Below are positions 9,971 through 52,066 of a DNA stretch of 64,000 nt, piece after piece. Position numbers and translations under genes: made by a program. The stretch is from contig ONIM01000004.1 of the NCBI GenBank assembly GCA_900317885.1, forward strand, positions 19,443 to 83,442, in the 5' to 3' direction. How positions within the stretch are numbered: position 1 is the first letter of the stretch; every line of letters starts with the position of its first letter. The DNA comes from an uncultured Bacteroidales bacterium. Its GTDB lineage: Bacteria > Bacteroidota > Bacteroidia > Bacteroidales > Paludibacteraceae. The notes below the pieces were generated by a model. That model worked only from the letters and a program-made list of their open reading frames with translations. It was not told where the DNA came from and ran no database searches.

Positions 9971-10000
9971 CAAAAAAAGCACCCGATTGAATTCGGGTGC
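9971..10000 (-). terminator. Terminator downstream of the TPR/AraC gene
   Basis: Stem GCACCCGA (9979-9986) with TCGGGTGC (9993-10000), loop of six; the minus-strand transcript continues into TTTTTTTG. It ends only about 16 bases before the ATG at 9954, so it could instead act as a leader attenuator for the 60-residue gene. Confidence 0.8.
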
Positions 10001-10096
10001 AAGAGTAGTGTAAATCTCCGAAATTGCTTTTGCAAAAGCGGACAATTATTTTACAGAATCGGACAAAGTGCTATTTATTAAGAAAAAAACCTATAA

Positions 10097-10214
10097 AACC
10101 CCTTGTCGTTTGTAAGCCAGGCGGGCTTTTATGCCTTAGGAGAGTATGCCGCACTGTGAGCGAGCTCCCGGTCGTCATACCCCCTAATTCACACTCATTA
10201 CGGAGTTACAAACG
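10097..10214. repeat. TIR-bounded intergenic element, copy 1
   Basis: Inverted ends CGTTTGTAA (10107-10115) and TTACAAACG (10206-10214) enclose about 90 bases. Its right half (ACCCCCTAATTCACACTC) resembles the right half of the element at 52343-52471 (ATCCCCTAACTCCACAACTC), and both begin with AAACCCCTT-like sequence. The two look like members of one small, non-coding, MITE-like family. Confidence 0.55.
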
Positions 10215-10242
10215 CCTACGGACATAAACCTAAAAAACAACA

Positions 10243-14806: not shown

Positions 14807-14837
14807 CAAAGGTACAATTTTTTTTGCATATTTCAAA
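14807..14837 (-). promoter_or_regulatory. Promoter of MATE-pepD, overlapping a divergent promoter
   Basis: Minus-strand TTTG (14834-14837), 19 bases, TACCTTTG (14807-14814). Its upstream half is shared with the plus-strand promoter at 14823-14854. Confidence 0.78.
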
Positions 14838-14854
14838 AAAAAGCAGTAATTTTG
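14823..14854 (+). promoter_or_regulatory. Promoter of the beta-barrel gene, overlapping a divergent promoter
   Basis: TTTG (14823-14826), 20 bases, TAATTTTG (14847-14854). The leader to the ATG at 14865 is only a few bases. Confidence 0.78.
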
Positions 14855-21701: not shown

Positions 21702-21741
21702 CACGATTTTTTAACAAACGTACATTAACATTCTGTCAACT

Positions 21742-21813
21742 TCATTCGGGGTGCCGGTCTGGCTGAGATAAAACCCGTTGAACTTGGGCAGGTAATGCTG
21801 CTAAAGAAAATGA
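21742..21813 (+). promoter_or_regulatory. TPP riboswitch (thi-box)
   Basis: Conserved thi-box blocks appear in order: CGGGGTGCC, GGCTGAGATAAAACCC, and GCAGGTAATGCTGC followed by AAAGAA. The closing P1 helix is TCATT (21742-21746) with AATGA (21809-21813). The 3' arm of P1 contains the ATG (21810-21812) of the TonB receptor. TPP binding should therefore hide the start codon and block translation directly. Known biology: thi-boxes ahead of outer-membrane receptors in Bacteroidetes. Confidence 0.88.
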
Positions 21814-33206: not shown

Positions 33207-33238
33207 CAAAATTACAATTTTTTTTGGATATATGCAAA
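33207..33238 (-). promoter_or_regulatory. Promoter of PASTA-rluD, overlapping a divergent promoter
   Basis: Minus-strand TTTG (33235-33238), 20 bases, TAATTTTG (33207-33214). Confidence 0.8.
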
Positions 33239-33254
33239 AATGTTTGTAATTTTG
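33223..33254 (+). promoter_or_regulatory. Promoter of the Cys-rich lipoprotein, overlapping a divergent promoter
   Basis: TTTG (33223-33226), 20 bases, TAATTTTG (33247-33254). With 33207-33238 it forms a symmetric pair that shares 16 bases. Confidence 0.8.
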
Positions 33255-36690: not shown

Positions 36691-36722
36691 CAAAGGTACT
36701 GCTTTTTTCTGATATATGCAAA
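36691..36722 (-). promoter_or_regulatory. Promoter of CNNM-smpB-gpmI
   Basis: Minus-strand TTTG (36719-36722), 20 bases, TACCTTTG (36691-36698). Confidence 0.8.
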
Positions 36723-36739: not shown

Positions 36740-37204
36740 TTACTTAATCACAACGAGAGATGGGATAAAGGGATTGTCATAAGTGCCGAGGTTGTCATCG
36801 CTCTTGTACGGGAAAGCGTCCTTCTGCTCGAAGATATTTTTATAATGCGTGGAGTAATAGCGGAGCGTGACCATTCCTTCCGAATCGGACATATAGAGGT
36901 AGAAGATTCCATCCTGGGGCGCTTTTACGCCGATGCAGGTCTCCCCGATAAATGCAGCCAGGAGGTCATTCTCGTTGAGGACGAAGTCCGCTGCGATATT
37001 CGGGTATTGCGCCTTGAGATCCACTTTGACTACTGCTGTCATGGATGAGGTCATGTCTGATTTCTCCGGAGCCGTCCAAACGGGGCGTGCCTTATTGGAG
37101 ACGAAGGTCTCCGGGGCTTGCTCTTGGTCTTTCTTGCAACCCGAGAAGAGCATCAGCATTATCATACTCAGAGAGTAGAGCGCGAAAATAAACGATTTCT
37201 TCAT
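36740..37204 (-). CDS. Small lipoprotein, unknown function
   Basis: 154 residues with a lipobox (SMIMLMLFSGC). The mature domain has NENDLLAAFIGETCIGVKAPQDGIFYLYMSDSEGMVTLRYYSTHYKNIF and ends LGTYDNPFIPSLVVIK. A similar LAAFVG.EC.GV pattern occurs in modules of larger Bacteroidetes surface proteins (from memory). Probably outer-membrane anchored. It stands alone with its own promoter. Confidence 0.75.
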   Translation of the reverse strand: MKKSFIFALYSLSMIMLMLFSGCKKDQEQAPETFVSNKARPVWTAPEKSDMTSSMTAVVKVDLKAQYPNIAADFVLNENDLLAAFIGETCIGVKAPQDGIFYLYMSDSEGMVTLRYYSTHYKNIFEQKDAFPYKSDDNLGTYDNPFIPSLVVIK

Positions 37205-37249
37205 ATAGATATTTTATTAATTATTTACCAAGCTTTTGTTTGACTTCCC

Positions 37250-37300
37250 TCTCCCGTGATAGGGGTGGTACCACCGCCGCTGGCAGCGAGCCTACAATAT
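37250..37300. repeat. Palindromic element upstream of the lipoprotein gene
   Basis: CCTCTCCC, GATAGGGG, a perfect GGTGGTACCACC, then GCCGCTGGCAGCG in series. It resembles the CCCTCCCC-type insertions in the NRPS gene. Confidence 0.5.
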
Positions 37301-37347
37301 GATATCACCGTTAACTTCATTTTTCTTCACAAAACCCTTTGCGGCTG

Positions 37348-37377
37348 CAAAGGTACTGCTTTTTTTTGAGATATGCA
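37348..37377 (-). promoter_or_regulatory. Promoter of the small lipoprotein
   Basis: Minus-strand TTG (37375-37377), 19 bases, TACCTTTG (37348-37355). The leader is about 140 bases and contains the palindromic element. Confidence 0.72.
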
Positions 37378-37395
37378 AGGAAAATCGGAGATTCT

Positions 37396-37422
37396 TAGTC
37401 GAAAGTAGAAAGCAGAAAGATC
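37396..37422. repeat. GTCGAAAGTAGAAAGCAGAAAG repeat, intergenic copy
   Basis: Third copy of the GAAAG family (also 2281-2328 and 18791-18820), located just downstream of the NRPS stop. Confidence 0.65.
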
Positions 37423-37430: not shown

Positions 37431-40400
37431 TTACTCATCGAAAAATCCTAATTGTGAAATAGCTGTTAACATTCTATTGACGTAGGCGCTATCGGGCGCG
37501 GACCAGCGGAAGCCGAGACGAAGGAGGACAGCAGAGGTATAGCGGTTGTCGCGCTCGATCGTGACCGCCTTCTGGCCGTGGGTCATATCCTGATACGCCA
37601 AGAGAGCGGACATGAGGCTCGCTTTCTTCGGATCCTGACTGGCTTCGAGGATCGCTTGCCGGAACTCGTCCTCCTCGACGTAACGGATGGACTTACCGAT
37701 CTTCTCAAAGCCCGCAAGGATATCGCCCAAGAGGTCGGTATGGTTGTTGAAGGGCTGGAAGACATTACATTCTTTCGGCGTGGAGGCAAGCAGCACGACA
37801 GCTTTTGCCGTCTCGTTCACCGGCGAGAACTCCGCCGGCGAATCGTATTCGTCTATCGGGCAGCAGCCGAGGGTGGAGAACACTTTGAGACGCCCCATGT
37901 AACTGTTGGATTGGAAGTTCGCCTGGAACTCACCGTCGTAGCTACGCGCAGCAAGGTTGCCGACACGCATGATCTTAGCGTTCAGGCCGTGACGCGCGAC
38001 GGCATCGAGGATGACACGTTCGGCGAGGAACTTCGACCGCATATAGCGGTTATCGAGGAACTGACCGAAGTACAGCAAGCGTTCCGACAGTTCGGGTACC
38101 GCCTTGCCGTCACCGCGATCTACCCAAATCTCGCCGACGGAAGTGGTAGATATATGGATGAGTCGTGCGCCGGTCTTGAGACAGAACTCCACGCAGCGCT
38201 CTGCGCCGCCGATATTTACCTGCTCGATGTCATCGGTCTTGGAGAAGTGCTTGACGTTGGCTGCGCAGTTGAAGACGGTATCAATCAGACCGTCCTTCGG
38301 ACTGACAGAGATTTCGCTTGTGACATCGCCGTTGACGACGAAGAGGCGGGAACCGAAGAGCTCATCAAAACGTCGGTCGAAATAGTAGAAGAGCAAGTTA
38401 CGCAGACGTCGTTGCGCATCTTGCTGGTCTTTACCGCGAACAAGACAGGTGATGGTCTTGGCATCGGAGTCAATCAGCTCGCGCAGGACATGAATGCCGA
38501 GATAACCGGTAGCACCGGTGAGCAGCACGTTGCCTAAGTCCTGACGCTCGCCGCGGAGGAAAGTATTGAGGTTATTGCGCTGCAGAATCGCATCGATGCC
38601 GGAGTAATCGAAGTTATTTTCATCGGTTACGGGTGAGGGGTTACCGGTTACGGGTGCTTCGCCCGAGAGGAATTGTGCCAAGAGACGCGGCGTAGGATGG
38701 GTGAAGATATCGCCGTAGGCAACATGCTTACCGGCTTTGTCCGCTTCGATGATGACGCGGGTGACCATGAGGGACGTACCGCCGAGTTCAAAGAAGTTAT
38801 CCGTGGCACCTATCTTATCCTGATTGAGGATGGATGCAAAGATGTCGCAGAAGAGCCGCTCGTTGTCGTTAGCCGGTGCTACGTAGTCGCGGTCGGTGTC
38901 GGTGAGCTGCGGAGCAGGCAGCGCACGTTTGTTCACTTTCTGGTTCTGGTTCAGCGGAATGACGTCGATCTGCATGATCGAAGCCGGCACCATGTACGGC
39001 GGTTTGCGATCACGGATGAAGGCATTGAGTGCCTGGATGTCCATCTTGGTGTCGCTGACGATATAGGCAGCGATGAACTTACCTCCGTTGGGGTAATCAA
39101 AAGCCTGCACGGTAGCGTCGTTGATGCCGGGGAACTCGCGGATGACGGCTTCTACCTCTTTGAGTTCGATACGGAACCCGCGGATCTTGACCTGACCGTC
39201 CTGCCGACCGACAAACTGGATATTGCCGTCTGCGAGGTAACGCACGACGTCGCCGGTGCGATAGCAACGGAGATTATTCCAGTCGATATAGGTCTCGGCG
39301 GTCTTGTCGGGACGATTGAGGTAACCGCGGCTGACCTGCGGACCGGAAACAAGCAGCTCGCCTATAGCGCCTACGGGCACACGATGGAGGTCCTTATCAA
39401 CGATGAAGAGCCGGAAGTTATCCAGGGGTTTGCCGATCGGGATATTCTTCTCCTGCTCGTGTATCGGATAGGTCGTGGTGAAGATGGTACACTCGGTCGG
39501 ACCGTACGCGTTATGAAGCAGATAGTTAGCCGGCGGCGCGATGGTCGCAAGTTTCTCTCCTCCCACAGACAAGTGCTTGAGGGAGTGGTTGTCGCAGTTC
39601 TGCGCAAACTGATAGCCCACCTGGGTCGTCATGAAGGAGTGGGTGATGCCTTCCGCCTCGAAGTAATGATTGAGGTCCGGCAGGTTCAGACGGATATCTT
39701 CGCCGATGATATAGACGGCAGCTCCGCATGTGAGCGCCGGGTACATATCCATCATGTTCGCATCGAAGCCGTACGAAGCATATGCCGCCACTTTGTCTCC
39801 GGCATGGAGATCGTAGTAACGATGGTACCAATGACAGAACGCCACGAGATTGCGATGCTCGAGTTGGCAGCCTTTGGGCACGCCGGTGGAACCGGAGGTA
39901 TAGAGGAGGATGAATAAATCCGATGGGGAAGCCTCACCCCAACCCTCCCCTGAAGGGAAGGGAGTTTTGACTTCTGCTAACTCTTTGGTCAGGAGGACGG
40001 GGCCGGAGTATTCAAAAAAGCCCCTCTCGGCGGAGGCGGCCGTTCTCCCCGTTCCGTCGGGGAGACACTCCGCGTCGGCAATGAGGAGGGAAGCGGACGC
40101 ATCCTTCATCATGAAGTTCAGTCGTTCAGCCGGATAAGACGGGTCAAGCGGCTGGTAGGCACAACCGGCTTTGAGGGCAGCCAAGGAAGCGACTACCATC
40201 CATTCGGAGCGGTTGATGAGGATAGAAACGACAGGCTCGGAGCTTCGCTCATCTGAGATTGGAGATTGGAGATTGAGCACTTCGCAGATCCGTGCAGCGA
40301 TAGCGTCCGTGCGGGTGTCCACCTCTTTGTAGGTGAGGCGGACGTCGTGATAGACGACGGCGAGGTTATCGGGCGTCTCAGCCGCTTGTTTACGGAAGAG

Positions 40401-43385
40401 CGAGACGATAGTCTGGGTGTCGTCATAAGGCATGTCGGTCTGGTTGAAGGAGTCGAGGACGGCAGTCTGCGCTTCGTTGAGGAGCGAGATGGAACGCAGA
40501 GGTGCGGTGGTGTTTGCCGCAAAAGCCTGCACGGCGTTTGCCACCGACTGCGCGAGGTTGGTGATGAGCGCTTCGCTGTACCAGCCGTTGTCGTACTCGA
40601 CGGCAATAGAGGGCACGCCGTCCATGGGCATGATATAAAACGCGATCTTGAATTTCGGCACGTTCTGCTCCATGGTCTCGTCGGCGAAAACGGGTTTGCC
40701 GAAGACGGAGTAGGAGCTGAGCACGCCCATCTGGTAAGCGAACATGATCTCTGCCTTGAGGTCATAATCCGCTGCCACGCGTGCAAAGGGGTAGTCCTCG
40801 TGGGCGAGCGTTTGCTCGAAGGACTGCGCGTTCTCGCGGACGAACTCCTCAACCATCTGGTTCGCTATCTTCGTTGTCAGCGCAAGGGTGTTGACGAACA
40901 TACCCATGGTGTTGTTGACGCGGAGGTTGCTTCGTCCGTTGGAGATGGTAGTGATGCAGACATCATCTGTTCCTGCAAAACGCGCCAAGGAATAATAGAC
41001 TGCACTCAGCAGCACTGCCGCCGGCGTCACGCCTAATTGGGCCGCATATTTCTCTGCCGTAGGCATGTCGAAAGGTACGCAGACGCGTCCGTTCTCGCCC
41101 TGGGGGATGGCGTTGGTGAGGTCCGGTTGGATCTCGGTGACACTCTCGATGCCGGTGAGACGCTCGGCGAAGAAGGCCTCAGCAGCCTTGAAGGATTCGC
41201 CATTTTCTGCAGCTTTCTGCTCCGCCACGAACTGCGGATACGAGCACATCTCGGGTTCGATCTCTTTGCCTTCGAGCAGGTCGCATATCTCATGGATGAA
41301 GAGGTCGTACGAGGCACCGTCGCAAACGAGGTGGTGGATGTCGCTCAGGAGATAGAGGTGCTGCTCCGTGCGCACGATGACGAAACGGAAGAGCAGGTCT
41401 TTCTGCAGGTTGAACGGCTGTACGAACTCATGCTTGAAAGCGTCCATCTGCGCCTCTTCGAGTGCTTTCTCGGGTACGTCGATGGCTGCTTCGTTCATTT
41501 GTTGGGTGTCGATGGTCTGGATGACCTCGGCTTCCCGGGTGGCAAAATGCACGAAGAGTTCGGAGTGGTTGAGTACTGCCTTGCGCACCGCTTGCTGCAA
41601 TGCGTCGGTCTCTACGTCCAAAGGCATCTGAGTACAGATCGGCACGTTATAGAGTGTGGAGGTCGGGTTCTTCATGCACTCGAAATAGACGCCGAGTTGG
41701 GCGAAGCTCAAGCCTACCCCCGTCCCCTCCCTAAAAGGAGGGGTGGTTTGTGCGTCGCTTTCTCCCTTCCCTTTAGGGGAGGGTTGGGGAGAGGCTACTA
41801 ATTGCGTCAGTATCTCATTCTCGATGGCTTGGAGGGTGATGCCTTTGGTCATCTGTTTGGCATCGAGTTGGATGCCGAAACGCTTGTATATCTGGGTTGC
41901 TAACTTGATGGCAGCGATGGAAGAGAGACCCATGTAACGGAGGTCGGTCGTGATGCCGAACTCCTCCATGTTGACAATCTTCGCGATGATATCGTGCAGT
42001 TCTTGTTCGAGGACATTGAGCGGAGCCGCAGCCACAGCCTCCTCTACTTCGGGCTTGGGCGCCTCCGGCTTCGGCAGGGCACGTTTATCGACTTTCTGGT
42101 TCGGGTTGAGGGGTATAGCGTCAATCTGCATTGTCACCGCGGGCACCATGTACGGCGGTTTGCTGTCGCCGATGAAGGCATTGAGTTCGTCGATGTTGAT
42201 CTTCTCGTCGCTGACGACATAGGCAGCGATGAACTTACCTCCGTCGGGATAGTCGAAAGCCTGCACGGTAGCATCTTTGATGCCGGGGAACTCACGGATG
42301 ATGGCTTCGACCTCTTTTAGTTCGATACGGAACCCACGGATCTTCACCTGTCCGTCCCTTCTGCCGACGAACTCGATGTTTCCGTCCTCGCGGTAGTGAA
42401 CGATATCGCCGGTCTTGTAGCAACGCAGGCCGTTCCAATCGACGAAGACCTCTGCGGTCTTCTCGGGTTGGTTGAGGTATCCGAGCGACACCTGCGGTCC
42501 GGCTACATAGAGCTCGCCGTCCGTGCCGGTCGGTACTTCTTTGCCGTCCTGTCCCACGACGATGAGTCGCGTGCCGTTCGTATTGGCTTTGCCGATAGGT
42601 ATATTGGGCTCGTTCTGGGTCACGAAGAAACTGCTGACATAGACGGTACACTCCGTCGGACCGTAGCAGTTCATCAACTTATAAGAAGGCGGATCGAGGC
42701 TAATCAGTTTCTCGCCGCCCGTACCGAGCCACTGCAAGCCCGGGATGTCGGGGTAATTGAGCACGAGTTGCGTTGCCATCTGGGTGGTCATGAAGCAGTG
42801 GGTAATGTGCTCGTCTTGGATATATTGGTTGAGCCCCTCCAGGTCAAAACGGATCTCGTCGCCTACGATGCAGATGGTGGCGCCGGCTTTGACGCAGCAC
42901 CAGAGGTCCATCTGGAAGGCATCGAAGCCGTAACCGGCGTAGGTGGCGTACTTGCTTTGCGGAGTCAAGCCGATGGCCTGGACATGGAAATCAAGGAAGG
43001 CTAAGATATTCGCCTCGCTGAGCATGACGCCCTTGGGGATACCGGTGGTACCGGAGGTATAGAGCAGCACAAAAGCGTCGTCGCCGTCGTACTTGGAGGC
43101 ATCCTCCCGCATGTAGTTCAATCGCTCTTCGGGATAAGAGCCATCCAGCGGCATGGCGGTCAGACCTGCCTTGGCGATAGCGAGAGGCACGATGACCATC
43201 TGTTCGTTACGGGGCACGATGAACGCTGCCACTTTGTCGCCGCAACGGGTGACATACTGCGGATCGAGGGTGTCTGACAGGCGGTCCGCCTCCGCGAAAG
43301 TGATGCGTTTGTCACCGGCGATGCAGAAGATGTCATTCGGCCGCTCGGCTACGTGTTTTTTGAAGTATTCGATTAAGTGTTTCAT
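37431..43385 (-). CDS. Two-module nonribosomal peptide synthetase with terminal reductase (A-T-C-A-T-R)
   Basis: 1984 residues. A1 (~1-435): LLYTSGTTGIPKGVML, CYGPTE, ELYVAGPQVSLGYLN, YKTGD, GQVKIRGFRIE. T1 (~450-525): Ser in YMGLSSIAAI. C (~562-980): HHLVCDGASYD, complete. A2 (~1000-1480): LLYTSGSTGVPKG, NAYGPTECTIF, YRTGD. T2 (~1498-1568): FFELGGTSLMVTRV. R (~1600-1984): VLLTGATGYLGIHVL NAD(P)H site, STTSVGE and YMRSKFLAE catalytic Tyr/Lys. No TE, no starter C domain. Module 1 should load amino acid 1 with a free amine, module 2 adds amino acid 2, and R releases a dipeptide aldehyde. A1 lacks ~40 residues between its A2 and A3 motifs. At least five repeat insertions lie in linkers or loops. 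Substrates are not called. Confidence 0.92.
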   Translation of the reverse strand: MKHLIEYFKKHVAERPNDIFCIAGDKRITFAEADRLSDTLDPQYVTRCGDKVAAFIVPRNEQMVIVPLAIAKAGLTAMPLDGSYPEERLNYMREDASKYDGDDAFVLLYTSGTTGIPKGVMLSEANILAFLDFHVQAIGLTPQSKYATYAGYGFDAFQMDLWCCVKAGATICIVGDEIRFDLEGLNQYIQDEHITHCFMTTQMATQLVLNYPDIPGLQWLGTGGEKLISLDPPSYKLMNCYGPTECTVYVSSFFVTQNEPNIPIGKANTNGTRLIVVGQDGKEVPTGTDGELYVAGPQVSLGYLNQPEKTAEVFVDWNGLRCYKTGDIVHYREDGNIEFVGRRDGQVKIRGFRIELKEVEAIIREFPGIKDATVQAFDYPDGGKFIAAYVVSDEKINIDELNAFIGDSKPPYMVPAVTMQIDAIPLNPNQKVDKRALPKPEAPKPEVEEAVAAAPLNVLEQELHDIIAKIVNMEEFGITTDLRYMGLSSIAAIKLATQIYKRFGIQLDAKQMTKGITLQAIENEILTQLVASPQPSPKGKGESDAQTTPPFREGTGVGLSFAQLGVYFECMKNPTSTLYNVPICTQMPLDVETDALQQAVRKAVLNHSELFVHFATREAEVIQTIDTQQMNEAAIDVPEKALEEAQMDAFKHEFVQPFNLQKDLLFRFVIVRTEQHLYLLSDIHHLVCDGASYDLFIHEICDLLEGKEIEPEMCSYPQFVAEQKAAENGESFKAAEAFFAERLTGIESVTEIQPDLTNAIPQGENGRVCVPFDMPTAEKYAAQLGVTPAAVLLSAVYYSLARFAGTDDVCITTISNGRSNLRVNNTMGMFVNTLALTTKIANQMVEEFVRENAQSFEQTLAHEDYPFARVAADYDLKAEIMFAYQMGVLSSYSVFGKPVFADETMEQNVPKFKIAFYIMPMDGVPSIAVEYDNGWYSEALITNLAQSVANAVQAFAANTTAPLRSISLLNEAQTAVLDSFNQTDMPYDDTQTIVSLFRKQAAETPDNLAVVYHDVRLTYKEVDTRTDAIAARICEVLNLQSPISDERSSEPVVSILINRSEWMVVASLAALKAGCAYQPLDPSYPAERLNFMMKDASASLLIADAECLPDGTGRTAASAERGFFEYSGPVLLTKELAEVKTPFPSGEGWGEASPSDLFILLYTSGSTGVPKGCQLEHRNLVAFCHWYHRYYDLHAGDKVAAYASYGFDANMMDMYPALTCGAAVYIIGEDIRLNLPDLNHYFEAEGITHSFMTTQVGYQFAQNCDNHSLKHLSVGGEKLATIAPPANYLLHNAYGPTECTIFTTTYPIHEQEKNIPIGKPLDNFRLFIVDKDLHRVPVGAIGELLVSGPQVSRGYLNRPDKTAETYIDWNNLRCYRTGDVVRYLADGNIQFVGRQDGQVKIRGFRIELKEVEAVIREFPGINDATVQAFDYPNGGKFIAAYIVSDTKMDIQALNAFIRDRKPPYMVPASIMQIDVIPLNQNQKVNKRALPAPQLTDTDRDYVAPANDNERLFCDIFASILNQDKIGATDNFFELGGTSLMVTRVIIEADKAGKHVAYGDIFTHPTPRLLAQFLSGEAPVTGNPSPVTDENNFDYSGIDAILQRNNLNTFLRGERQDLGNVLLTGATGYLGIHVLRELIDSDAKTITCLVRGKDQQDAQRRLRNLLFYYFDRRFDELFGSRLFVVNGDVTSEISVSPKDGLIDTVFNCAANVKHFSKTDDIEQVNIGGAERCVEFCLKTGARLIHISTTSVGEIWVDRGDGKAVPELSERLLYFGQFLDNRYMRSKFLAERVILDAVARHGLNAKIMRVGNLAARSYDGEFQANFQSNSYMGRLKVFSTLGCCPIDEYDSPAEFSPVNETAKAVVLLASTPKECNVFQPFNNHTDLLGDILAGFEKIGKSIRYVEEDEFRQAILEASQDPKKASLMSALLAYQDMTHGQKAVTIERDNRYTSAVLLRLGFRWSAPDSAYVNRMLTAISQLGFFDE
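38625..38657. repeat. GGTTACGGGTGAGGGG repeat between T2 and R of the NRPS
   Basis: Two GGTTACGGGTG units flank AGGGGTTACC and encode APVTGNPSPVTDE. Copies of the same family occur at 43703-43729 (intergenic) and 44350-44385 (phosphatase gene). Confidence 0.75.
39929..39970. repeat. CCCTCCCCTGAAGGGAAGGG insertion in A2 of the NRPS
   Basis: Palindromic; encodes VKTPFPSGEGWGEASPS immediately before the A3 core motif. Confidence 0.75.
40021..40078. repeat. Second palindromic insertion in A2 of the NRPS
   Basis: CTCCCC, eight bases, GGGGAG, with a GGCGGAGGCGG flank. It encodes PDGTGRTAASAERGFF, which does not fit an adenylation domain. Confidence 0.65.
40250..40277. repeat. GAGATTGGAGATTGGAGATT tandem insertion in A2 of the NRPS
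   Basis: Three 8-base units encode NLQSPISDE; reverse-orientation relative of the rnhA insertion (1841-1882). Confidence 0.75.
41711..41796. repeat. Double palindromic insertion between T1 and C of the NRPS
   Basis: CCCCTCCCTAAAAGGAGGGG and CCCTTCCCTTTAGGGGAGGG follow each other and encode SPQPSPKGKGE and TPPFREGTGVGL in the T1-C linker. Confidence 0.8.
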
Positions 43386-43386
43386 T

Positions 43387-43689
43387 TTATTCTATCGTGA
43401 AAAGGTTATGAAAACCGCTCATGCGGAAGATATCGTCCACGTCCTCGTTGAGGTGGGTGATGCGAATCGAACCGCCTTTCGCCTCGGACTCGCGCTTGAG
43501 TTGCATGAAGAACCGCAAGCCGGCAGAAGAGATATACTCCAGCTGCTCACAATCGATCTCCAGCGCTTTGTCGGCCAGCGCCAACACTTGGTTCAGGTCC
43601 TCTACTTGGGTCGTGGTAACTGTCGTGTCGAGTTCGCCGATAAGGCAAACACGCGTCTCTTTGTCATTCGGAATAATGTTGATTTTCAT
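43387..43689 (-). CDS. STAS-domain anti-sigma-factor antagonist (RsbV-like)
   Basis: 100 residues from the ATG at 43689 (MKINIIPND); the frame extends to 43791, but that part is repeat-derived (RNPVTRNPL). STAS fold: RVCLIGELDTTVTTTQVEDL, and the phospho-acceptor Ser in LEIDCEQLEYISSAGLRFFMQL. In partner switching the dephosphorylated STAS protein binds the RsbW-type kinase. The stop is 1 base ahead of the NRPS ATG, so the two are tightly coupled. Confidence 0.9.
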   Translation of the reverse strand: MKINIIPNDKETRVCLIGELDTTVTTTQVEDLNQVLALADKALEIDCEQLEYISSAGLRFFMQLKRESEAKGGSIRITHLNEDVDDIFRMSGFHNLFTIE

Positions 43690-43702
43690 ATTGTGTAATT
43701 TT

Positions 43703-43729
43703 AAGGGGTTACGGGTTACGGGATTACGA
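43703..43729. repeat. GGTTACGGGTTACGGG intergenic repeat
   Basis: Between the RsbW-like and STAS genes. Same family as the insertions at 38625 and 44350. Confidence 0.65.
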
Positions 43730-44074
43730 ACTGATTTTCTTAACGAGGGTGAGGATGTTTTTGTCCTCGCTGCGCTCATAGTGTATCTCATCGACGAGTT
43801 GGCGGATGAGATGGATTCCCAGCCCTCCTACCTGTCTTTCGTCGGTCGCTTTGTCGTTGGGAATATGTGCCGTGGGGTCAAAGGCGATTCCGTCATCCGA
43901 TAACTGAATGCTGAATGCTGAATGCTGAATGCTGAGTACCATCTCTATCTCTGTCGCCCGGGAATAATGCAGAATATTCACGACCGCTTCTTCGGCTGCC
44001 ACCTCGAACTGCTTGAGGGCTTTCTTGCCGAGTCCGGCGCACATGCCGAAGGTATGTATTGTTCCTTTCAGCAC
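43724..44074 (-). CDS. RsbW-like anti-sigma / serine-kinase ATPase with internal repeat insertion
   Basis: 116 residues. HATPase_c signatures: Glu/Asn box in KQFEVAAEEAVVNILHYS, LSDDGIAFDPTAH, and GGLGIHLIRQLVDEIHYERSEDKNILTLVKK. A tandem GAATGCT repeat (43905-43935) encodes SIQHSAFSIQ directly before the DDG motif. The only start is GTG at 44074, just after an in-frame stop, and the domain lacks ~10-15 usual N-terminal residues, so the start region may be damaged. Expected to phosphorylate or bind the STAS protein. The phosphatase frame reads ~180 bases into it. Confidence 0.8.
   Translation of the reverse strand: MLKGTIHTFGMCAGLGKKALKQFEVAAEEAVVNILHYSRATEIEMVLSIQHSAFSIQLSDDGIAFDPTAHIPNDKATDERQVGGLGIHLIRQLVDEIHYERSEDKNILTLVKKISS
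43905..43935. repeat. GAATGCT tandem repeat inside the RsbW-like gene
   Basis: Four 7-base copies of TGAATGC in a row. Read in two frames they encode SIQHSAFSIQ (kinase) and QHSAFSIQHS (phosphatase tail). Confidence 0.8.
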
Positions 44075-44349
44075 ACGCCATTGTGAGGGGTCCTGTCTTG
44101 CGGATGGTCATGAGGGTGATATCATCCGTAGGTTCCGCTTTGCCCATGAAGCCTTTGATAGCGCCGTACAGGTCATCGCGAGTCGCCACGATCTCTGCCC
44201 ATCGCTCAAGTCCTAACATCTCCCGCTCGGGGTTACGGGCCTCGGTCACACCATCCGTATAAAGGACAAGGGTATCTCCTTCTCCGAGCATGCAACCTTG
44301 CTCCACGAACGAGTAATGTCCGTCAAAGCCCAGCGGGATATTCGGTTCA

Positions 44350-44385
44350 ACGGTGAGGGGTGAGGGGTTACCGGTTACGGGTGAG
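44350..44385. repeat. GGTTACGGGTGAG repeat inside the phosphatase gene
   Basis: Encodes YSPVTGNPSPLT; same family as 38625-38657. Confidence 0.7.
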
Positions 44386-44661
44386 TAGACAATCGGCGCG
44401 CAATGTCCGGCGTTGCAGTAAACCAACTCGCCCGTAGGGATGCGGAGGCGTCCGACAAAAGCTGTGACGAAAGTCAGGGAGGGGTTGTTCTCACTGAGGA
44501 CAGCGTTCATCTCCTCCATGATCTCTTTGGGTGAGTTAGCCCGCACGCCGGCAGCACGGAAGAGGTTCACCGCGGCACTCATGAAGATCGCCGCCGGCAC
44601 TCCTTTGCCGCTCACATCGCCGATGATGAACCATAACTCGTCTCCTTCGCGATGGAAGTCA

Positions 44662-44739
44662 AAGAGGTCTCCTCCGACTTCGCGCATCGGCACCAGGAGC
44701 AAGAGGTCTCCTCCGACTTCGCGCATCGGCACCAGGAGC
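44662..44739. repeat. Exact 39-bp tandem duplication in the phosphatase gene
   Basis: 44662-44700 and 44701-44739 are identical. The duplication keeps frame and repeats 13 residues. Perfect identity suggests a recent event or an assembly artefact. Confidence 0.9.
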
Positions 44740-45219
44740 GTTTGGAGCTCGATATCGCCGTCGCCTTGGGCTTTCTTCTTCTCGTTCTCGTCCTTCAGGA
44801 TACCCATCTGGATGTCATGGGCGATCTCCAGCTCGTGCGAGAGCACCTCTTTCTCCGTCTCCAGGCGTGCGTTCACTTGCTCGTCTCGCGTGATGCGACG
44901 AATCAAGAGTCCCACGACGAGGATACCTAATACAAACACGCTCAAGGGCAATAAGATACCTAAGCGGAGAGATTTGAGAATGTGGCTTTTCGGGATAGCC
45001 GTAACCATGCTGATATTAATCGGCTGCAGGGTCTTACGGGAGATGATCCAACTCTGGTCAAAACCATCCTTGGGTGCGCCATCGCTGGCAGCCAGGAGGG
45101 TTCCGTTGGAGCTATAAAGCATGAACACCGCCGCCTCAAAAGGCTTGAAATGATCCAAGAGTTGGTTGATCCATTTGAGACTGAAATCGATGCCAATGAC
45201 GCAAATCAGTTTTCCTTCT

Positions 45220-45669
45220 TCATCCCGCATCGTCCTTGCTTTGCGCCGCACCTTTGTACCACTCGCGCTCAAAATAATCATGGGCATCATCGCCTAAGAT
45301 ACCGGAGATGATGGTGTCCTGCGTACGATAGGTGGTCGGTTCATACCATTTCTCTTGGGGGAAATAGTACGGAGGAAAAGCCACATAACAGGCGTAGAAA
45401 GTAGGATAGCGGTTGAGTATCTCTTCCGTTTTGTGGGTAATCGTCCTCGGCTTCGACAGCTGTTTCTTCACTCCGTCCTCCAACTCAGCCCATGCTTCCA
45501 ACGCATCGTACAACTCAAAACGCAGCTTCTCTTCGGCGATCTGCATCTCCAGCTCCATCTTCTCCTGCAGACGGAACCGTGCCCGGCTGTAGGACACGTA
45601 CGACTGCACTCCCATGCCTAACAGGAGGAAGAGAGCCGCTAAAATATGTACGGACGCAAATCGTTTCAT
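45220..45669 (-). pseudogene. SpoIIE/RsbU-like phosphatase, 5' sensor fragment
   Basis: 149 residues: N-terminal membrane helix (VHILAALFLLLGMGVQSYVSYS), then the first part of a dCache-like extracytoplasmic sensor (PTFYACYVAFPPYYFPQEKWYEP, DYFEREWYKGA). The frame ends 8 codons later at SKDDAG. The expected W..PY.D...TYS.P segment of such sensors is absent, so a deletion seems to accompany the frameshift. With the downstream fragment it would give one sensor phosphatase. The start overlaps the transporter stop by 4 bases. Confidence 0.7.
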
Positions 45670-47030
45670 GGATTAAAGAGCCCGATTCCGTTCAAGAAGA
45701 TAAGAAGAATAGCTATCGGTACGATCCATCGGAGGGCGAAGACGAACGCCGGACGAAGCCATTGTTTGTAGCGCTTCTGACTATGCGGCACGAGGTCGTT
45801 GTCCTGGAACGGCATGAACCATCCGATGAACAGCGACATCGCTAATGCGCTAAACGGCATCATATAGTTCGTCACAAGGGTGTCGCTTAGATCAAAGAGG
45901 TTATGTCCGCATATCTGCAATCCGCTCCAGACGCCGGTCATCGACAGTATATAAAGCGTCACAAATATACAGATGACACCGGTTGCTATCAGCACGCTGT
46001 AATGCCTGTTGAGCTTGCCGCGACTCATCTCCATGATGCTGGCTACAATCACCTCCATCAGGGAGATCGTCGAGGTGAGCGCTGCGATGAACAGCAAAGC
46101 GAAGAAAACCACGCCGCTGAGCCATGCGAAAGACATATGCTGCAAGACTGCCGGCAGGACGACGAAGACTAACTGCGGACCTTCCGCCGGGTCAAAACCA
46201 AACGCAAACACCGCCGGGAAGATGATCACACCTGCCAGGACGGCTACCAAGGTATCGAGGAGGATGACTTGGAATGACGTCTTGGTCACATCCTGCTCTT
46301 TAGGCATATACGCGCCATAAGTGATCATCAGACCGAGACCCACCGAGAGGCTGAAAAAGCACTGACCGGCGGCTTCCATAAAGACCGAAGGCGTGATATG
46401 CGAGAAATCCGGATGGAAGAAGAACTTGAGTCCTTCTCCGCTGCCCTCTAACAGCAGCACGCGGACGACCATCAAACTCATCATAATCAGCAGAAGGGGC
46501 ATCAGAATCTTACTCAGCCGCTCGATACCGCTGCTCACACCGAACCACAGAATGGCGGCGGTGCACAACACCGGAATGATAGCGCAGATGATCATCTTCG
46601 GAGCATTGGTCATGTTCGCCGAGAAATGCGTGAGCAGCTCTTCCGTTCCCATGCCTGCGTACGAGTTAACGACCGCCTCATAGAGGTAGTTCACGCACCA
46701 GCCCGTCACCACGAAATAGAACCCCGTGAGGATCAGTACCGTAAGCGCCGACCACCATCCTAACCACTGCCAGCGGTTATTGCCGCTGATGGCGCGGAAA
46801 GCGGAGAAGGTCGATTGGCCCGCCTTGCGACCGATCAGCATCTCCGTCATCAAGAGCGGCATGCCGAAAAGAATAACGCATAGGAGGTACACTAACAAAA
46901 AAGCACCACCGCCGTTCTGACCTGCCTCGTACGGAAATTTCCAGATATTTCCTAAACCGATAGCACTGCCCGCGGCAGCTAAAATGACTCCTAACTTGGA
47001 ATTAAAACCCGTGTTTTTTGGCTGTTCCAT
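45666..47030 (-). CDS. NSS-family Na+-coupled amino-acid transporter
   Basis: About 454 residues, 11-12 membrane helices. The Na+/substrate site motif of helix 1 is clear (GSAIGLGNIWKFPYEAGQNGGGAFLLVYLL), as is GVSSGIERLSKILMPLLL of the central region. This family (LeuT, TnaT) imports neutral or aromatic amino acids with Na+. The ATG at 47030 (MEQPKNTG) follows the promoter at 47055-47086; the in-frame upstream start is inside the promoter. It overlaps the phosphatase and appears to be the first gene of the NRPS operon, so it may supply a substrate amino acid. Confidence 0.9.
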   Translation of the reverse strand: MEQPKNTGFNSKLGVILAAAGSAIGLGNIWKFPYEAGQNGGGAFLLVYLLCVILFGMPLLMTEMLIGRKAGQSTFSAFRAISGNNRWQWLGWWSALTVLILTGFYFVVTGWCVNYLYEAVVNSYAGMGTEELLTHFSANMTNAPKMIICAIIPVLCTAAILWFGVSSGIERLSKILMPLLLIMMSLMVVRVLLLEGSGEGLKFFFHPDFSHITPSVFMEAAGQCFFSLSVGLGLMITYGAYMPKEQDVTKTSFQVILLDTLVAVLAGVIIFPAVFAFGFDPAEGPQLVFVVLPAVLQHMSFAWLSGVVFFALLFIAALTSTISLMEVIVASIMEMSRGKLNRHYSVLIATGVICIFVTLYILSMTGVWSGLQICGHNLFDLSDTLVTNYMMPFSALAMSLFIGWFMPFQDNDLVPHSQKRYKQWLRPAFVFALRWIVPIAILLIFLNGIGLFNP

Positions 47031-47054: not shown

Positions 47055-47086
47055 CAAAGATACTGCTTTTTTTGCATTTATGCAAA
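47055..47086 (-). promoter_or_regulatory. Promoter of the transporter-partner switch-NRPS operon
   Basis: Minus-strand TTTG (47083-47086), 20 bases, TATCTTTG (47055-47062). It is the only promoter of this type seen upstream of the six genes. Confidence 0.78.
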
Positions 47087-48481: not shown

Positions 48482-49603
48482 TTACTTGCTGCTTTTCCGT
48501 CGGTTGCAATCGCGGCAGAGCATTTGGCAGTTGGAGGCAATCGTTCGTCCGCCTTCTACCCACGGGGTGATATGGTCGGCTTCCATGACTTCGATGTCAA
48601 ACGCTTTGCCGCAGATTGCGCACTTGCCGCCTTGTCGTTCATAGACCTCACGGCGCGTGTTCGCATCAAAAGTGCGGATACCCAAATGGTGGATGTCGCC
48701 GTCCAAGATATAAGCGAAGATGCCGGATTTCTTCTGCACATCGGAGTCCGCCATCAATTTAGCCATTTGTTGGCCGATTGAAGTAGCGGTTAAAGGCGTG
48801 TCTTTGTGTTTGTTATACAACAGGCCCCATTCCACGCCTTTCATCTCTTTTTTGTACTGGCGGCCGAAGAGTTTTTCAATCCAATGAATGACATCCTGGA
48901 AATACTGCCATAGTTCGTCGGCATCGGTGTCATGCTGGTGGAGCGCCATGTATTTCTCAATCGTCAAGCCTTGTTTGTCTGCAATCCAACCGAGTGCGGT
49001 CTCAAAATAATCCTGCCGAATAGGCGAACCGTTCATGAAGTCCGAACCGATGCGATAAGCCACGCAGCCTGTCTTGGAGAAACGGCGTTTGGCTTGCGTA
49101 ACCCACGAGCCGGAATAGATGGCATTGCGGATTTCCTGATCTTTGAGTTTCTCGCCGGCAATATTGATGCGCTGGAACCATTTGAGTTTCTCTTCGTCGG
49201 TTCCTTCGCAGATATAGATTTGCAGTTTGTAGTCGAGAATACGGTTTTGCTGCTCTTCGGTCATGTTGTTGAATCCGAGCAAGTTACCGTCAAAAAGCAT
49301 CATATACTCGCCGGCAATAAACGAACAAATAGAAATCGTTCGTTGCTGTCCGTCGAGGACTTCGTATTCGATGCCGTCAGAGCCATCTGTCTTAACCCAA
49401 TACATGACGTTGAGCGGGAAATTCTGCCAGACGGTGTCCATGACGGCATTTCGTTGTTTCTCGTCATAAACGAACTCTCGTTGATATTTCGGGCGTATAT
49501 TCAATCGTCCGTTATAACCGACGATTCCTTCTTCTTGAATACTCAAATCGTTGTACCCCGCGCACAACTCCCGCACGCGAATTTCATGCAATTCTATTTT
49601 CAT
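48482..49603 (-). CDS. DUF262 + HNH endonuclease (GmrSD-like)
   Basis: 373 residues. The N-terminal DUF262 (ParB-like) domain has IRPKYQREFVYDEKQRNAVMDTV and the signature VLDGQQRTISI. The C-terminal HNH domain has paired Cys and His: CAICGKAF, EADHITPWVEGGRTIASNCQMLCRDCNRRK. Relatives act as NTP-driven nucleases against modified or foreign DNA (GmrSD, DUF262 BREX-type). The start overlaps the stop of the adenine methylase (ATGA), so the two form a restriction-modification-like pair. Confidence 0.88.
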   Translation of the reverse strand: MKIELHEIRVRELCAGYNDLSIQEEGIVGYNGRLNIRPKYQREFVYDEKQRNAVMDTVWQNFPLNVMYWVKTDGSDGIEYEVLDGQQRTISICSFIAGEYMMLFDGNLLGFNNMTEEQQNRILDYKLQIYICEGTDEEKLKWFQRINIAGEKLKDQEIRNAIYSGSWVTQAKRRFSKTGCVAYRIGSDFMNGSPIRQDYFETALGWIADKQGLTIEKYMALHQHDTDADELWQYFQDVIHWIEKLFGRQYKKEMKGVEWGLLYNKHKDTPLTATSIGQQMAKLMADSDVQKKSGIFAYILDGDIHHLGIRTFDANTRREVYERQGGKCAICGKAFDIEVMEADHITPWVEGGRTIASNCQMLCRDCNRRKSSK

Positions 49604-50733
49604 GGCTTTTGTGGTTTTTTATTACGAATTAAAATGCGTTGATACACTTTTTCTTGAATGCCATCTTTTAGTATAACACCACTAGCATTCAAATCATAAG
49701 TACCATTTTTCCCAAATTTTGCGAAGTAAGCCTGTTTACATTCTGCCGTTGTATATACTTTGGTTTTTAAAGCATAGAGGTTTTCATTTTCACACATGCC
49801 CAAAATCTCAAATTGATCTGGATTGTATTTATCCATAAAAGTAATCGGTACTCCCATTATTCCTTCAAAATCAATAGGGATTTCACCAGTTTTATTCACA
49901 TTTATTGCGTCGTAATTTTCATAAGTAGGGTATTCCTCAGGAGTATATTGCTTGTATAAATCTAAATCTTCATGTCGTTGAGGATAGTCTAAGTTTGTAA
50001 ACCATCGAACCCCAACAACTCTAATATATCTATTTCCTTTTTCATCAACTCGCAAGGATTTAGACCTTACTTCATAAGTGGGAGGAATCATAAATTCTCG
50101 ATCCCCGCTATGTATACTCACCCCAAGCCACATATTATTCTCTTTTACTAACTTGAAGCATTCTTTGTATGTTAATGCATTCTGATTTCCAATTATCAAG
50201 AATTTTTTTTCATATTTCACTAATTGAGCCACATATTCGCGGAAAAGCGAGAAAGGCGGATTGGTGACCACTATATCTGCTTCTTTGAGCAATTCAATAC
50301 ATTCCTGTGAGCGAAAATCTCCATTCCCTTTGAGTAAAGAAAGTACATTTTTATCATTTTGAATTAAGTATTGCACATCGGCTAAATTTACCGCTCCATC
50401 GTTATTGTAGTCCTGTACTTCCGTAATCTCTACTTTGTAGGCTATCTTCTTTGGTTCACTTTCTTCTATCTCAAACAACAACGGCAGTTCATCCCCGGCT
50501 ATGGGAGAACCGTTATAGCAGGTAGCTATCAATTTCTTGAGACCTAATTGGTTGAAATTAAGGGCAAAATACTTGAAGAAATTACTCTCGTACGGGTCGT
50601 CGCAATTACACAACACTACCTTTCCCTTAAAGTGTTGTTTATAATATTTGAGTTCCTTGGCTATATCGTCTAATTGTGTATAGAACTCATCCTGTTTAGC
50701 AACTTTAGCTGCTTGTAAATCGCTTTGTGCCAT
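49600..50733 (-). CDS. EcoRI-type adenine-specific DNA methyltransferase with dockerin-like loop
   Basis: About 377 residues from ATG 50733 (MAQSDLQAAKVAKQDEFYTQLDDIAKEL). Matches the EcoRI methylase family: CNCDDPYESNFFKYFALNF and the catalytic ADIVVTNPPFSLFREYVAQL. Residues ~118-140 contain DYNNDGAVNLADVQYLI, a Ca-binding dockerin/EF-hand-like loop unusual in a cytosolic methylase. Coding is more AT-rich than flanking housekeeping genes, consistent with transfer. A N6-adenine methylase protecting sites cut by the adjacent HNH protein is the natural reading; the target site is unknown. Confidence 0.88.
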   Translation of the reverse strand: MAQSDLQAAKVAKQDEFYTQLDDIAKELKYYKQHFKGKVVLCNCDDPYESNFFKYFALNFNQLGLKKLIATCYNGSPIAGDELPLLFEIEESEPKKIAYKVEITEVQDYNNDGAVNLADVQYLIQNDKNVLSLLKGNGDFRSQECIELLKEADIVVTNPPFSLFREYVAQLVKYEKKFLIIGNQNALTYKECFKLVKENNMWLGVSIHSGDREFMIPPTYEVRSKSLRVDEKGNRYIRVVGVRWFTNLDYPQRHEDLDLYKQYTPEEYPTYENYDAINVNKTGEIPIDFEGIMGVPITFMDKYNPDQFEILGMCENENLYALKTKVYTTAECKQAYFAKFGKNGTYDLNASGVILKDGIQEKVYQRILIRNKKPQKP

Positions 50734-50776
50734 ATTGATTGATAGCTGTTTTGTGCATACTATCAATCACAGCAAT

Positions 50777-51071: not shown

Positions 51072-51929
51072 CTACATCTTACTCAATAAATCATCAGTTG
51101 TTTGTTCCAATTTGACGAAGCCAAACCACTTTTTGCCGAGGTCTTTGAGACTTGCGCCTATAAGATAAACGGCGTCGTCTATACACAAGAACCGATCGTG
51201 AGCACGATCAAACTGCTCAATTTCTATTGGAGCATATTGCGCATTGTGTTTCTCGAAATCGAGTGTCAATTGGCGGGAAATACTCTTTGTGTAGATGGTG
51301 GCACTTACGTCTTCACCTCGCTTATCTAACATCGTCAAAACACTGTCATCCACATAGTTATCAATCAATACGATACGTTTCTTAGCTTCGCGGATTCGAT
51401 CATTAACAAAAGTATATGCATCAAAGATTTGTCCGTCATAAAAGATTCCTTCAACGGGTGGTAACGATGTCCGCACAAAAAAATCTACCTTATTTTGCAA
51501 TTCATGTATCTGGTCTGAGTGTTCTTGCAAACGACGGTCTATGCGGTCTTCCATGCTCGTTAATCGTTGGTTTACCGCATAGCCTTTTAATAAATAATCC
51601 TTTAATATTTTATTTGCCCACTGCCGAAACTCAACACCTCTTTTACTTTTTACCCGATAACCGACAGAGATAATAACATCTAAGTTGTAATATGTGGTTT
51701 CATATACTTGGTCGGCATCCATACCCATGTGTGCAAATTTTGCACATGTGATATTTTCACCCAATTCGCCCTCCTTATATATGTTGCGTATATGCCTCGA
51801 AATAACCGTTCTATTACGGTCAAACAGCAATGCTATCTGGTTTACATTGAGCCAAACAGTCTCGTCTTTCAGTTGCACCTCCAATTGAAACTGCTCATTC
51901 GGTTTGTATAATACTATTTCGTCTTTCAT
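51072..51929 (-). CDS. RhuM-like DNA-binding protein
   Basis: 285 residues. The N-terminal ~120 match the RhuM/virulence-protein family: VWLNVNQIALLFDRNRTVISRHIRNIYKEGEL, TTYYNLDVIISVGYRVKSKRGVEFRQWANKILKDYLLKGYAVN. A coiled linker (~125-150) leads to a second domain with VLIDNYVDDSVLTML and AHDRFLCIDDAVYLIGASLKDLGKK, which looks phospholipase-D-like with a single H.R/D core. The family is common on islands and near restriction genes. Promoter at 52035-52066. Confidence 0.8.
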   Translation of the reverse strand: MKDEIVLYKPNEQFQLEVQLKDETVWLNVNQIALLFDRNRTVISRHIRNIYKEGELGENITCAKFAHMGMDADQVYETTYYNLDVIISVGYRVKSKRGVEFRQWANKILKDYLLKGYAVNQRLTSMEDRIDRRLQEHSDQIHELQNKVDFFVRTSLPPVEGIFYDGQIFDAYTFVNDRIREAKKRIVLIDNYVDDSVLTMLDKRGEDVSATIYTKSISRQLTLDFEKHNAQYAPIEIEQFDRAHDRFLCIDDAVYLIGASLKDLGKKWFGFVKLEQTTDDLLSKM

Positions 51930-52034: not shown

Positions 52035-52066
52035 CAAAATTACACAAAAAAAATGACACTTGCAAA
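52035..52066 (-). promoter_or_regulatory. Promoter of the RhuM-like gene
   Basis: Minus-strand TTTG (52063-52066), 20 bases, TAATTTTG (52035-52042). The leader is ~100 bases. Confidence 0.75.

Follow-up and report, generated by a model that had tools for sequence, protein, structure and literature searches.

What does a partner-switching module control when no sigma factor is encoded with it? This question is raised by an operon in a 64,000-nucleotide (nt) stretch (hereafter, the window) of contig ONIM01000004.1 from an uncultured Bacteroidales bacterium of the family Paludibacteraceae (assembly GCA_900317885.1), where genes for a SpoIIE-type phosphatase, an RsbW-type kinase and a STAS domain protein lie ahead of a gene for a nonribosomal peptide synthetase (NRPS). 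An earlier reading of the window alone (the original prediction) proposed that the kinase and the STAS protein may act on the NRPS at the protein level. Here we report a comparative analysis of this locus in its genus, family and order, as well as in Clostridia and methanogenic archaea. A receptor, a STAS protein and the NRPS form a core link, and gene content gives good support to a receptor-STAS switch dedicated to a mobile NRPS pathway. On balance, we favor a reading of the operon as a self-contained mobile peptide pathway with its own receptor-STAS switch that acts after translation.

Association of the switch genes with the NRPS in Bacteroidales

The core of the locus comprises three features of the window (loci, genomes and contigs used for comparison bear the letters L, G and C):

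43724..45669, minus strand: remnant of a single fused receptor gene, in the order PDC/Cache sensor, transmembrane segment, SpoIIE phosphatase and RsbW-type HATPase kinase (from Pfam matches and relatives)
43387..43689, minus strand: STAS-only protein of 100 amino acids (aa) with an ISSAGLR phosphoserine-type motif
37431..43385, minus strand: NRPS of 1984 aa in one uninterrupted frame, with adenylation (A), carrier (T), condensation (C) and reductase (R) domains in the order A-T-C-A-T-R

Among 63 genomes of the genus, searched with the STAS protein of L042 as the query, 36 (the window's own included) carry the NRPS and 27 do not, 7 of the latter showing single adenylation-domain matches only. 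Type I STAS proteins, defined as at least 72% identical to the query, were identified in 28 of the 36 NRPS genomes, beside the NRPS in all 28, and in 0 of the 27 others, 16 of which have a paralogue of 32-44% identity. A STAS gene of any type lies within ~6 kb of the NRPS on the same contig in 34 of the 36 genomes; those without type I include G171, G146, G199 and G237, with a paralogous STAS at the NRPS, and G254 and G243, with a STAS gene 5-6 kb downstream of it. The NRPS thus does not occur without the switch genes at random, the pattern that the original prediction had named as speaking against it.

In a sample of 300 genomes of the family, an NRPS match at 1e-30 was found in 73, many of them single adenylation-type domains; the stretches taken for comparison were 39 of the larger loci, together with contig C40 of the window's own draft genome. 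Across 44 Bacteroidales NRPS loci, the receptor family was identified within 7 kb of the NRPS in 37, a STAS protein in 35, an NSS-type transporter in 9 and any other family in at most 4, a count in which several loci are cut by contig ends and L190, having been found via its receptor, favors the link. The 44 loci omit L033, L063, L064, L066, L068 and L069, and include G243, G199 and G237, re-entered as L290-L292. The linkage proposed originally therefore stands for the receptor, STAS and NRPS; the NSS transporter, found at only 9 loci, was rejected as a core component and is thus an optional partner.

Organization of the operon and its genes

The minus-strand array running from 47030 to 37431 consists of four genes, encoding the NSS transporter, the receptor remnant, the STAS-only protein and the NRPS. 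The receptor ATG overlaps the NSS stop by 4 nt, and the NRPS ATG lies 1 nt past the STAS stop. The overlaps and few-base gaps, including the STAS-NRPS junction, are as the original prediction had them. Pfam likewise bore out its domain identities, namely SNF/NSS (PF00209, 3e-58), SpoIIE (PF07228, 7.5e-44), HATPase_c_2 (2.4e-21), STAS (PF01740, 1.3e-12) and, in the NRPS, A-T-C-A-T followed by an NAD_binding_4 reductase. Its count of six genes, with a broken phosphatase and a separate RsbW-like kinase, has to be revised, since these frames are one fused gene in relatives (28 open reading frames (ORFs), L034-L036 included). Two further features lead the operon:

45666..47030, minus strand: NSS/SNF sodium-dependent transporter (also NF037979), a recurrent but non-constant partner
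47055..47086, minus strand: Bacteroidales-type promoter, -33 TTTG, N20, -7 TATCTTTG, from an exact-match scan of the window

The most likely NSS start is the ATG at 47030, because the alternative TTG at 47057 overlaps the -7 element. The promoter is the operon's sole exact -33/-7-type match, the flanking minus-strand matches being at 36691-36722 and 52035-52066, so that its description as the only consensus promoter holds; exact matches number 11 in the window, compared with 0.84 expected from shuffles.

The receptor gene of the window is broken. Its remains are as follows:

45220..45669, minus strand: remnant open frame 1, the N-terminal sensor half (PDC), ending just past the first deletion
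43893..45290, minus strand: remnant open frame 2, the remaining sensor, transmembrane segment and SpoIIE phosphatase, with the reading frame shifted from the second deletion on
43724..44074, minus strand: remnant open frame 3, the HATPase_c_2 kinase domain with a truncated N-terminus and the N, G1 and G2 boxes kept
44661..44738, minus strand: an exact in-frame tandem duplication of 39 nt within the phosphatase, which L034-L036 do not have

Compared with the intact gene of L035, to which it is 91% identical at the DNA level, the window copy has a 65-nt deletion (junction 45230/45231) and a 35-nt deletion (junction 44084/44085), each of which shifts the frame. The fused receptor is intact in the close relatives L034, L035 and L036, and measures 646-737 aa in relatives; over loci L033-L072, both catalytic domains share one frame in 28 ORFs of 574-737 aa, and eight more SpoIIE frames lack this combination. 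Of these eight, one each in L035 and L036 is an additional SpoIIE gene at another place, that of L037 is split into two overlapping frames, those of L041 and L070 show no kinase domain, and those of L066, L067 and L069 are truncated where the contig or the fetched stretch ends. The metal-site motifs GGD, GDVSGK, TDG and DD of the phosphatase are invariant in 14 aligned receptors, and the HATPase_c_2 domain is a predicted serine kinase. Relatives retain the active-site motifs of all four components: phosphatase, kinase, STAS and NRPS. Because the receptor is broken in the window's genome, this copy has probably lost its signal input, barring an assembly error; the break may reflect decay or a fault in assembly. 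A further, 94% identical STAS-NRPS junction lies on the short contig C40 (1-3464, L033) of this draft genome; it hints at mixed strains and may be a strain variant or a second copy.

Across 19 loci, the mean identity of the receptor sensor is 41%, compared with 69-78% for the NRPS domains, which suggests that species may place one and the same product line under differing signals. The loops of the catalytic half (window 44349-44390 and 43945-44159) contain differing, short, repetitive-looking inserts among the close relatives L034-L036, and the NRPS linker near 41.8 kb contains text (PSPKGKGE, FREGTG) resembling these inserts.

The most likely STAS start is the ATG at 43689, not 43791, because relatives start there. 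The motif I(S/A)S(A/S)GLR is present in the aligned rows that show the STAS frame, with the exception of L070 (ISSKGIR), and the identity of the STAS protein across the 19 NRPS loci is 77%. The STAS protein of L055 has an internal 12-residue tandem duplication.

The NRPS has a reductase-terminated layout with intact catalytic motifs:

42066..43385, minus strand: adenylation domain A1, boundaries approximate
41796..42023, minus strand: carrier domain T1 with a GLSSI serine, boundaries approximate
40455..41711, minus strand: condensation domain, HHxxxDG
38937..40397, minus strand: adenylation domain A2
38667..38852, minus strand: carrier domain T2 with a GGTSL serine
37434..38543, minus strand: terminal thioester reductase domain, boundaries approximate, YxxxK invariant in 12 aligned rows

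Structures have been solved for relatives of the reductase, among them a T-R chain (6vtj) and the reductase domain of AusA (4f6l). This layout would give a reductively released dipeptide. Reading both adenylation domains by eye against the GrsA code positions gave no confident substrate, and the result was not used. The gut clusters for dipeptide aldehydes and pyrazinones that Guo et al. reportedly described in 2017 are likewise built on small NRPSs with a terminal reductase from gut anaerobes. A protein of the arginine deiminase family adjoins the NRPS in L062 (7766-9865, fused to DUF3089) and L034 (606-1922); the NRPS of L062 is switchless.

Mobility of the cluster and rebuilding of the link

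None of six genes flanking the operon in the window was found in the stretches around the NRPS of L033-L072, which, in the nine stretches measured, reach 5-12 kb upstream and only 0.3-2.2 kb downstream. The NRPSs of G230, G158, G296 and G126 are 90-93% identical to that of the window and their gpmI genes 75-76%; G169, with 97% identity in gpmI, has no NRPS. On a quick tree of this single marker gene for 59 of the 63 genomes (three had no gpmI match, and that of G281 was partial), NRPS presence changes 19 times, about as often as with shuffled labels (19.5); supported branches force 12 of these changes. Over 19 genomes, the Spearman correlation of pairwise NRPS distances is -0.05 with gpmI and 0.62 with the receptor. 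The NRPS cluster is, by these comparisons of sequences, horizontally mobile.

In 12 independent pairs of genomes that differ in the NRPS, type I STAS, scored anywhere in the genome, differs in the same direction in a mean of 7.4 pairs and in the opposite direction in 0, with no difference in 4.6 (sign test on supported branches, median p 0.016). The same test on a switch beside the NRPS (10.5 same, 0 opposite and 1.5 none of 12) was rejected as partly circular, the value being zero by definition without an NRPS.

Since linked genes travel together regardless, the rebuilding of the link is the stronger argument. L061 has an NRPS of the window clade with another, paralogous type of switch at the same place; L291 and L292 have the order NRPS-STAS-receptor, and L190, from another family of the order, NRPS-receptor-STAS. 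In L070, STAS and phosphatase genes lie upstream of the NRPS, and in L065 the NRPS is followed by a phosphatase-kinase gene. These observations bear on the notion that the receptor, STAS and NRPS merely share islands with no functional coupling, the window copy being in decay. The broken receptor of the window, the mobility of the cluster within the genus and the split NRPS frames of G126 (L044) and G260 (L041), with no kinase domain found at the G260 locus, would all fit it. However, at least four gene orders retain the link, L061 retains it with a paralogous switch, and it recurs in Clostridia and methanogens; in a scan of named genomes with the NRPS profile, any switch domain was found at 2 of 71 further NRPS loci (L081-L151, some of them on short contigs), and both, L082 and L149, come from anaerobes that we count as cases. 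We regard mere co-mobility as highly improbable.

Sigma factors and the transcriptional alternative

With the two sigma-70 proteins of the window's own genome as queries, no sigma homologue was found in the window or in the scanned NRPS stretches, and the 84 loci searched gave one homologue, in the non-NRPS locus L185. A sigma factor encoded together with the switch as its output was thus not found in these stretches, and the own two sigma-70 region 2 genes are both on other contigs, in agreement with the absence of a sigma factor noted originally for the neighborhood. Twelve genomes of the genus have 1-5 sigma-70 region 2 genes each, most with one or more extra. G126 (98% complete) has a single sigma-70 gene (sigma-54 was not searched) together with an intact receptor and STAS and a split NRPS frame. 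Strong HATPase_c_2 matches (E <=1e-16) in the 12 genomes number 24, all in frames of 670-749 aa except the broken copy of the window, so that no free RsbW-like protein shows among them; 12 weaker matches, in frames of 102-1216 aa, lie outside this count. Archaea are not known to have sigma factors, and the archaeal control genomes gave no sigma-70 region 2 match.

Canonical RsbU-RsbW-RsbV systems control transcription via sigma factors. By this precedent, the STAS protein could act via the primary sigma factor, an unlinked extracytoplasmic function (ECF) sigma factor or an unlinked repressor, and so set the transcription of the operon. One strong promoter serves the operon, and extra sigma-70 genes are present in most of the checked genomes, with a partial one in G230 only ~9 kb from the NRPS. 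Published reports also describe Rsb control of the primary sigma factor in Chlamydia (PMC4552016) and STAS partners that are repressors, CapK/CapS (PMC13373217), and regulated expression was proposed for an archaeal NRPS (Leahy et al. 2010, PMC2812497). The scanned NRPS stretches without a sigma homologue, the single sigma-70 gene of G126, the lack of a free RsbW-like protein among the strong matches and the similar switch-NRPS clusters of archaea all argue against a transcriptional output, and we consider it unlikely. A sigma-free output is supported by the few sigma-70 genes per genome and the similar pairings in methanogens; gene content makes action after translation the most likely output of the switch.

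Pairings in Clostridia and methanogens

The scan of named genomes also identified clostridial NRPS loci with like neighbors. In L076, the order is NRPS, MatE-HATPase_c_2 fusion, SpoIIE-HATPase fusion, PGA_cap and STAS, and L078, L079 and L149 have SpoIIE and HATPase domains, with STAS in two of the three. In the order to which the genome of L076 belongs, 10 of 245 genomes matched the NRPS at 1e-150; among ten regions from nine genomes, STAS, SpoIIE and HATPase occur together at the NRPS in L208, L209 and L210. L215 has an asparagine synthase beside the NRPS, and L212 is a contig of the NRPS only.

In the genus of the Methanobrevibacter metagenome-assembled genome that contains L082, 48 of 67 genomes have an NRPS match. 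Of ten methanogen loci, nine have, directly after the NRPS, a 574-587-aa ORF that resembles HATPases by a local profile, and in the tenth, L221, the contig ends there. STAS is divergent upstream in 7/10, and STAS, HATPase and SpoIIE occur together in 5/10; none of the three was found upstream in L218 and L223, and L227 has hardly any upstream DNA. MATE models matched all four of the ORFs tested (L218, L223, L222 and, from the scan of named genomes, L082). McrA was identified in 4/10 methanogen genomes, three times on the NRPS contig (G949, G945 and G1004), and the genome of L082 itself gave no McrA match.

The MATE exporters with a C-terminal RsbW-like domain beside the NRPS are located as follows:

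L076, 5997-7730, and L079, 7826-9622: clostridial fusions, Pfam HATPase_c_2 at 1e-10 and 5e-11, respectively
L218-L220 and L222-L227: methanogen ORFs, the MATE part supported by models in L218, L222 and L223

These fused domains mostly keep the N box and the G1 D-x-G, but the ATP-lid GGLGI is missing or degenerate, unlike in the receptors and free kinases. A model of the L076 domain from a four-row alignment (mean pLDDT 86.5) best matches SpoIIAB from a SpoIIAA complex (TM score 0.80, 13% identity), followed by RsbW from RsbV complexes. Because the model resembles proteins in complex with their antagonists, the fused domain is plausibly a docking site for STAS on the exporter.

These findings invite the view that the STAS protein gates the transporter of the product or precursor, not the NRPS. 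The nine methanogen ORFs directly after the NRPS, the fusions adjoining it in L076 and L079, the retained N and G1 boxes with a missing or degenerate lid motif and the SpoIIAB-like model are all in its favor, as is the recurrence of transporters by Bacteroidales NRPSs (NSS at 9/44 loci, MatE in L074 and L080). However, no transporter is constant at the locus in the window's genus, and the strong HATPase_c_2 matches there contain no MATE-sized frame. For the operon as a whole, control of transport in place of synthesis appears distinctly improbable.

Receptor-STAS modules apparently tied to other enzymes

When 393 genomes of the order were searched with the receptor profile, 100 gave a match at 1e-60, which in many covers no more than the phosphatase part; among the stretches taken around the best matches, 1 of 20 contains an NRPS (L190). 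Another receptor-STAS pair, intact and of type II, is present in the window's own genome (L182); after it come genes for a RelA_SpoT-domain protein and a kinase of APH type, and in L183 and L056 homologues of both proteins (68-79% identical) follow a receptor-STAS pair. Another STAS protein is thus apparently tied to an enzyme, and, since receptor-STAS pairs occur away from the NRPS, as in L182, the NRPS is one among several enzymes tied to such a switch. The type II pair with its RelA_SpoT protein, which is similar to GTP diphosphokinases, is located at 9539-11539 and upstream in L182 (G000:C41) and at 2762-6900 in L056, and also occurs in L183. The RelA-like homologues of L056 and L183 are 71-79% identical, their Pfam support coming from L182, and the STAS gene overlaps the RelA-like gene by 4 nt in L182 and 14 nt in L056. 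In L185, L187 and L188, an ORF of ~400 aa with a STAS match precedes a fused receptor, after which come an ORF of 598 aa and a second STAS; the 598-aa ORF is a CitMHS/TrkA-C transporter (on the basis of L185), a further kind of partner for the receptor family.

Proposed action of the switch

In the pathway that we propose, a ligand at the receptor would set the balance of phosphatase and kinase activities, this balance would determine how far the STAS serine is phosphorylated, and STAS in one of its forms would turn the pathway on or off after translation, with no sigma factor involved. In the lineage of the window, the likeliest target would be the NRPS itself, because it is the only other gene constantly kept with STAS and the receptor. 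In methanogens and some Clostridia, it would be the MATE exporter with the RsbW-like domain. Babu et al. reportedly described in 2010 the structure of a STAS domain, that of E. coli YchM, with acyl carrier protein. Since the carrier domains of NRPSs are relatives of acyl carrier proteins, direct contact between STAS and the NRPS would be possible.

A more specific version, which we put forward tentatively and with some doubt, would make STAS a phosphorylation-controlled subunit that docks onto the NRPS in Bacteroidales and onto the RsbW-like pseudokinase of the MATE exporter in methanogens and some Clostridia. Sigma-free partner switching would then gate the assembly or export of natural products across two domains of life.

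A number of observations weigh against a switch that acts on the NRPS after translation. Of the protein-level action proposed originally, the linkage holds, an output without a sigma factor is supported, and direct control of the NRPS protein by STAS is the part that we infer. Genes of one operon are inherited together whatever their function. No nearby switch was found in 2 of the 36 NRPS genomes of the genus (G277 and G270), and when any STAS match is scored in the 12 pairs, the association is not significant (same 4.5, opposite 0, no difference 7.5; median p 0.125). The partial sigma-70 gene of G230 stands at the end of the NRPS contig. In L061 and L048, the STAS at the NRPS is a diverged one, which speaks against a very specific STAS-NRPS interface. 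The conservation of STAS, considered as a sign of such an interface, was dropped, because the RelA-linked paralogue is equally conserved relative to its receptor (STAS 80-82% versus receptor 59-62%, 3 loci). In the order of the L076 genome, 7 of the 10 regions have no such switch at the NRPS; among the four of these whose neighbor was tested, a 7TM histidine kinase takes its place in L211, L214 and L216. The methanogen MATE ORFs match Pfam HATPase_c_2 weakly (L223 3.7e-4, L082 9.7e-4) or, in L218, not at all. A MATE-HATPase fusion, looked for in the genus of the window, is absent from the 24 strong HATPase_c_2 matches in 12 genomes, so that the exporter route of archaea is not simply transferable.

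Comparison with known systems

The window locus encodes the phosphatase, kinase and STAS protein of a partner-switching system and is putatively classed as one. As in RsbU/RsbW/RsbV and SpoIIE/SpoIIAB/SpoIIAA, a SpoIIE-type phosphatase, a HATPase_c_2 kinase and a STAS protein with a phosphoserine motif are encoded together. In contrast to these systems, phosphatase and kinase are here fused on a membrane receptor, no sigma factor is encoded at the locus, the NRPS comes next, and no free RsbW-like protein shows among the strong matches. Among solved structures, the receptor best matches that of Mycobacterium tuberculosis Rv1364c (PDB 3ke6), at 3.2e-14 and over its phosphatase part. Rv1364c likewise has RsbU and RsbW domains in one chain, as do the 28 ORFs of L033-L072 (broken in the window); in contrast to the layout of full-length Rv1364c, the receptor is led by a PDC/Cache membrane sensor and its STAS is a separate protein.

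Similar in logic is the SypE-SypA pair of Vibrio fischeri, in which the target of a dual kinase/phosphatase consists of STAS only and serves as the output in its own right; the pair controls biofilm formation through an unidentified target, and the passages on it mention no NRPS (PMC8256260). The same review notes several STAS-only switches with no identified target. A STAS switch tied to one enzyme through several gene orders, together with the archaeal pairings, gives a short list of candidate targets, the NRPS and the exporter.

Similar in gene content is the cluster mru0066-0071 of Methanobrevibacter ruminantium M1, where an NRPS is surrounded by serine phosphatases, an anti-sigma factor antagonist and a MatE protein, and where sensing and control of NRPS expression were suggested (Leahy et al. 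2010, PMC2812497). It differs in being archaeal, and the end of its NRPS is a thioesterase in the text and a reductase in the supplementary legend; the passages on this cluster propose control of expression, with no mention of a fusion of MATE and kinase or of a lack of sigma factors. A rumen survey reports archaeal NRPSs with a probable transfer from bacteria, the term 'anti-sigma' being absent from its main text (PMC8241843). As to the original remark that such control was not known to be described, the co-occurrence itself is not wholly new, having been noted in M. ruminantium in 2010 (PMC2812497). This was the only report of a switch-NRPS link that we found in the literature, of which subscription papers were mostly outside reach, so that absence in print is not established. 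We regard the receptor-STAS-NRPS arrangement as a new form of partner switching. If the proposed action is correct, protein contact would be a means by which bacteria and archaea can switch the biosynthesis or export of peptides, and the receptor might offer a route to the signal for such gut NRPS clusters.

Other features of the window

No 14-mer with at least 4 copies was found in the window, and the gap between the NRPS and a small ORF (36740-37204) gave no Rfam riboswitch match at E 0.5. This gap contains, at 37230-37400, a long leader with an TACCTTTG element. A thiamine pyrophosphate (TPP) riboswitch (RF00059, 57.9 bits) is located at 21737-21825, and each of the intervals 14807-14854 and 33207-33254 contains two divergent -33/-7 promoter matches that overlap. 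Just upstream of the NRPS operon, a restriction-modification pair (48482-50766) consists of an EcoRI-type methylase (PF13651) adjoining a GmrSD_N-HNH nuclease (PADLOC REase_II), and a PADLOC PDC-S05 candidate is found at 51072-51929, in a dip of GC content (0.384).

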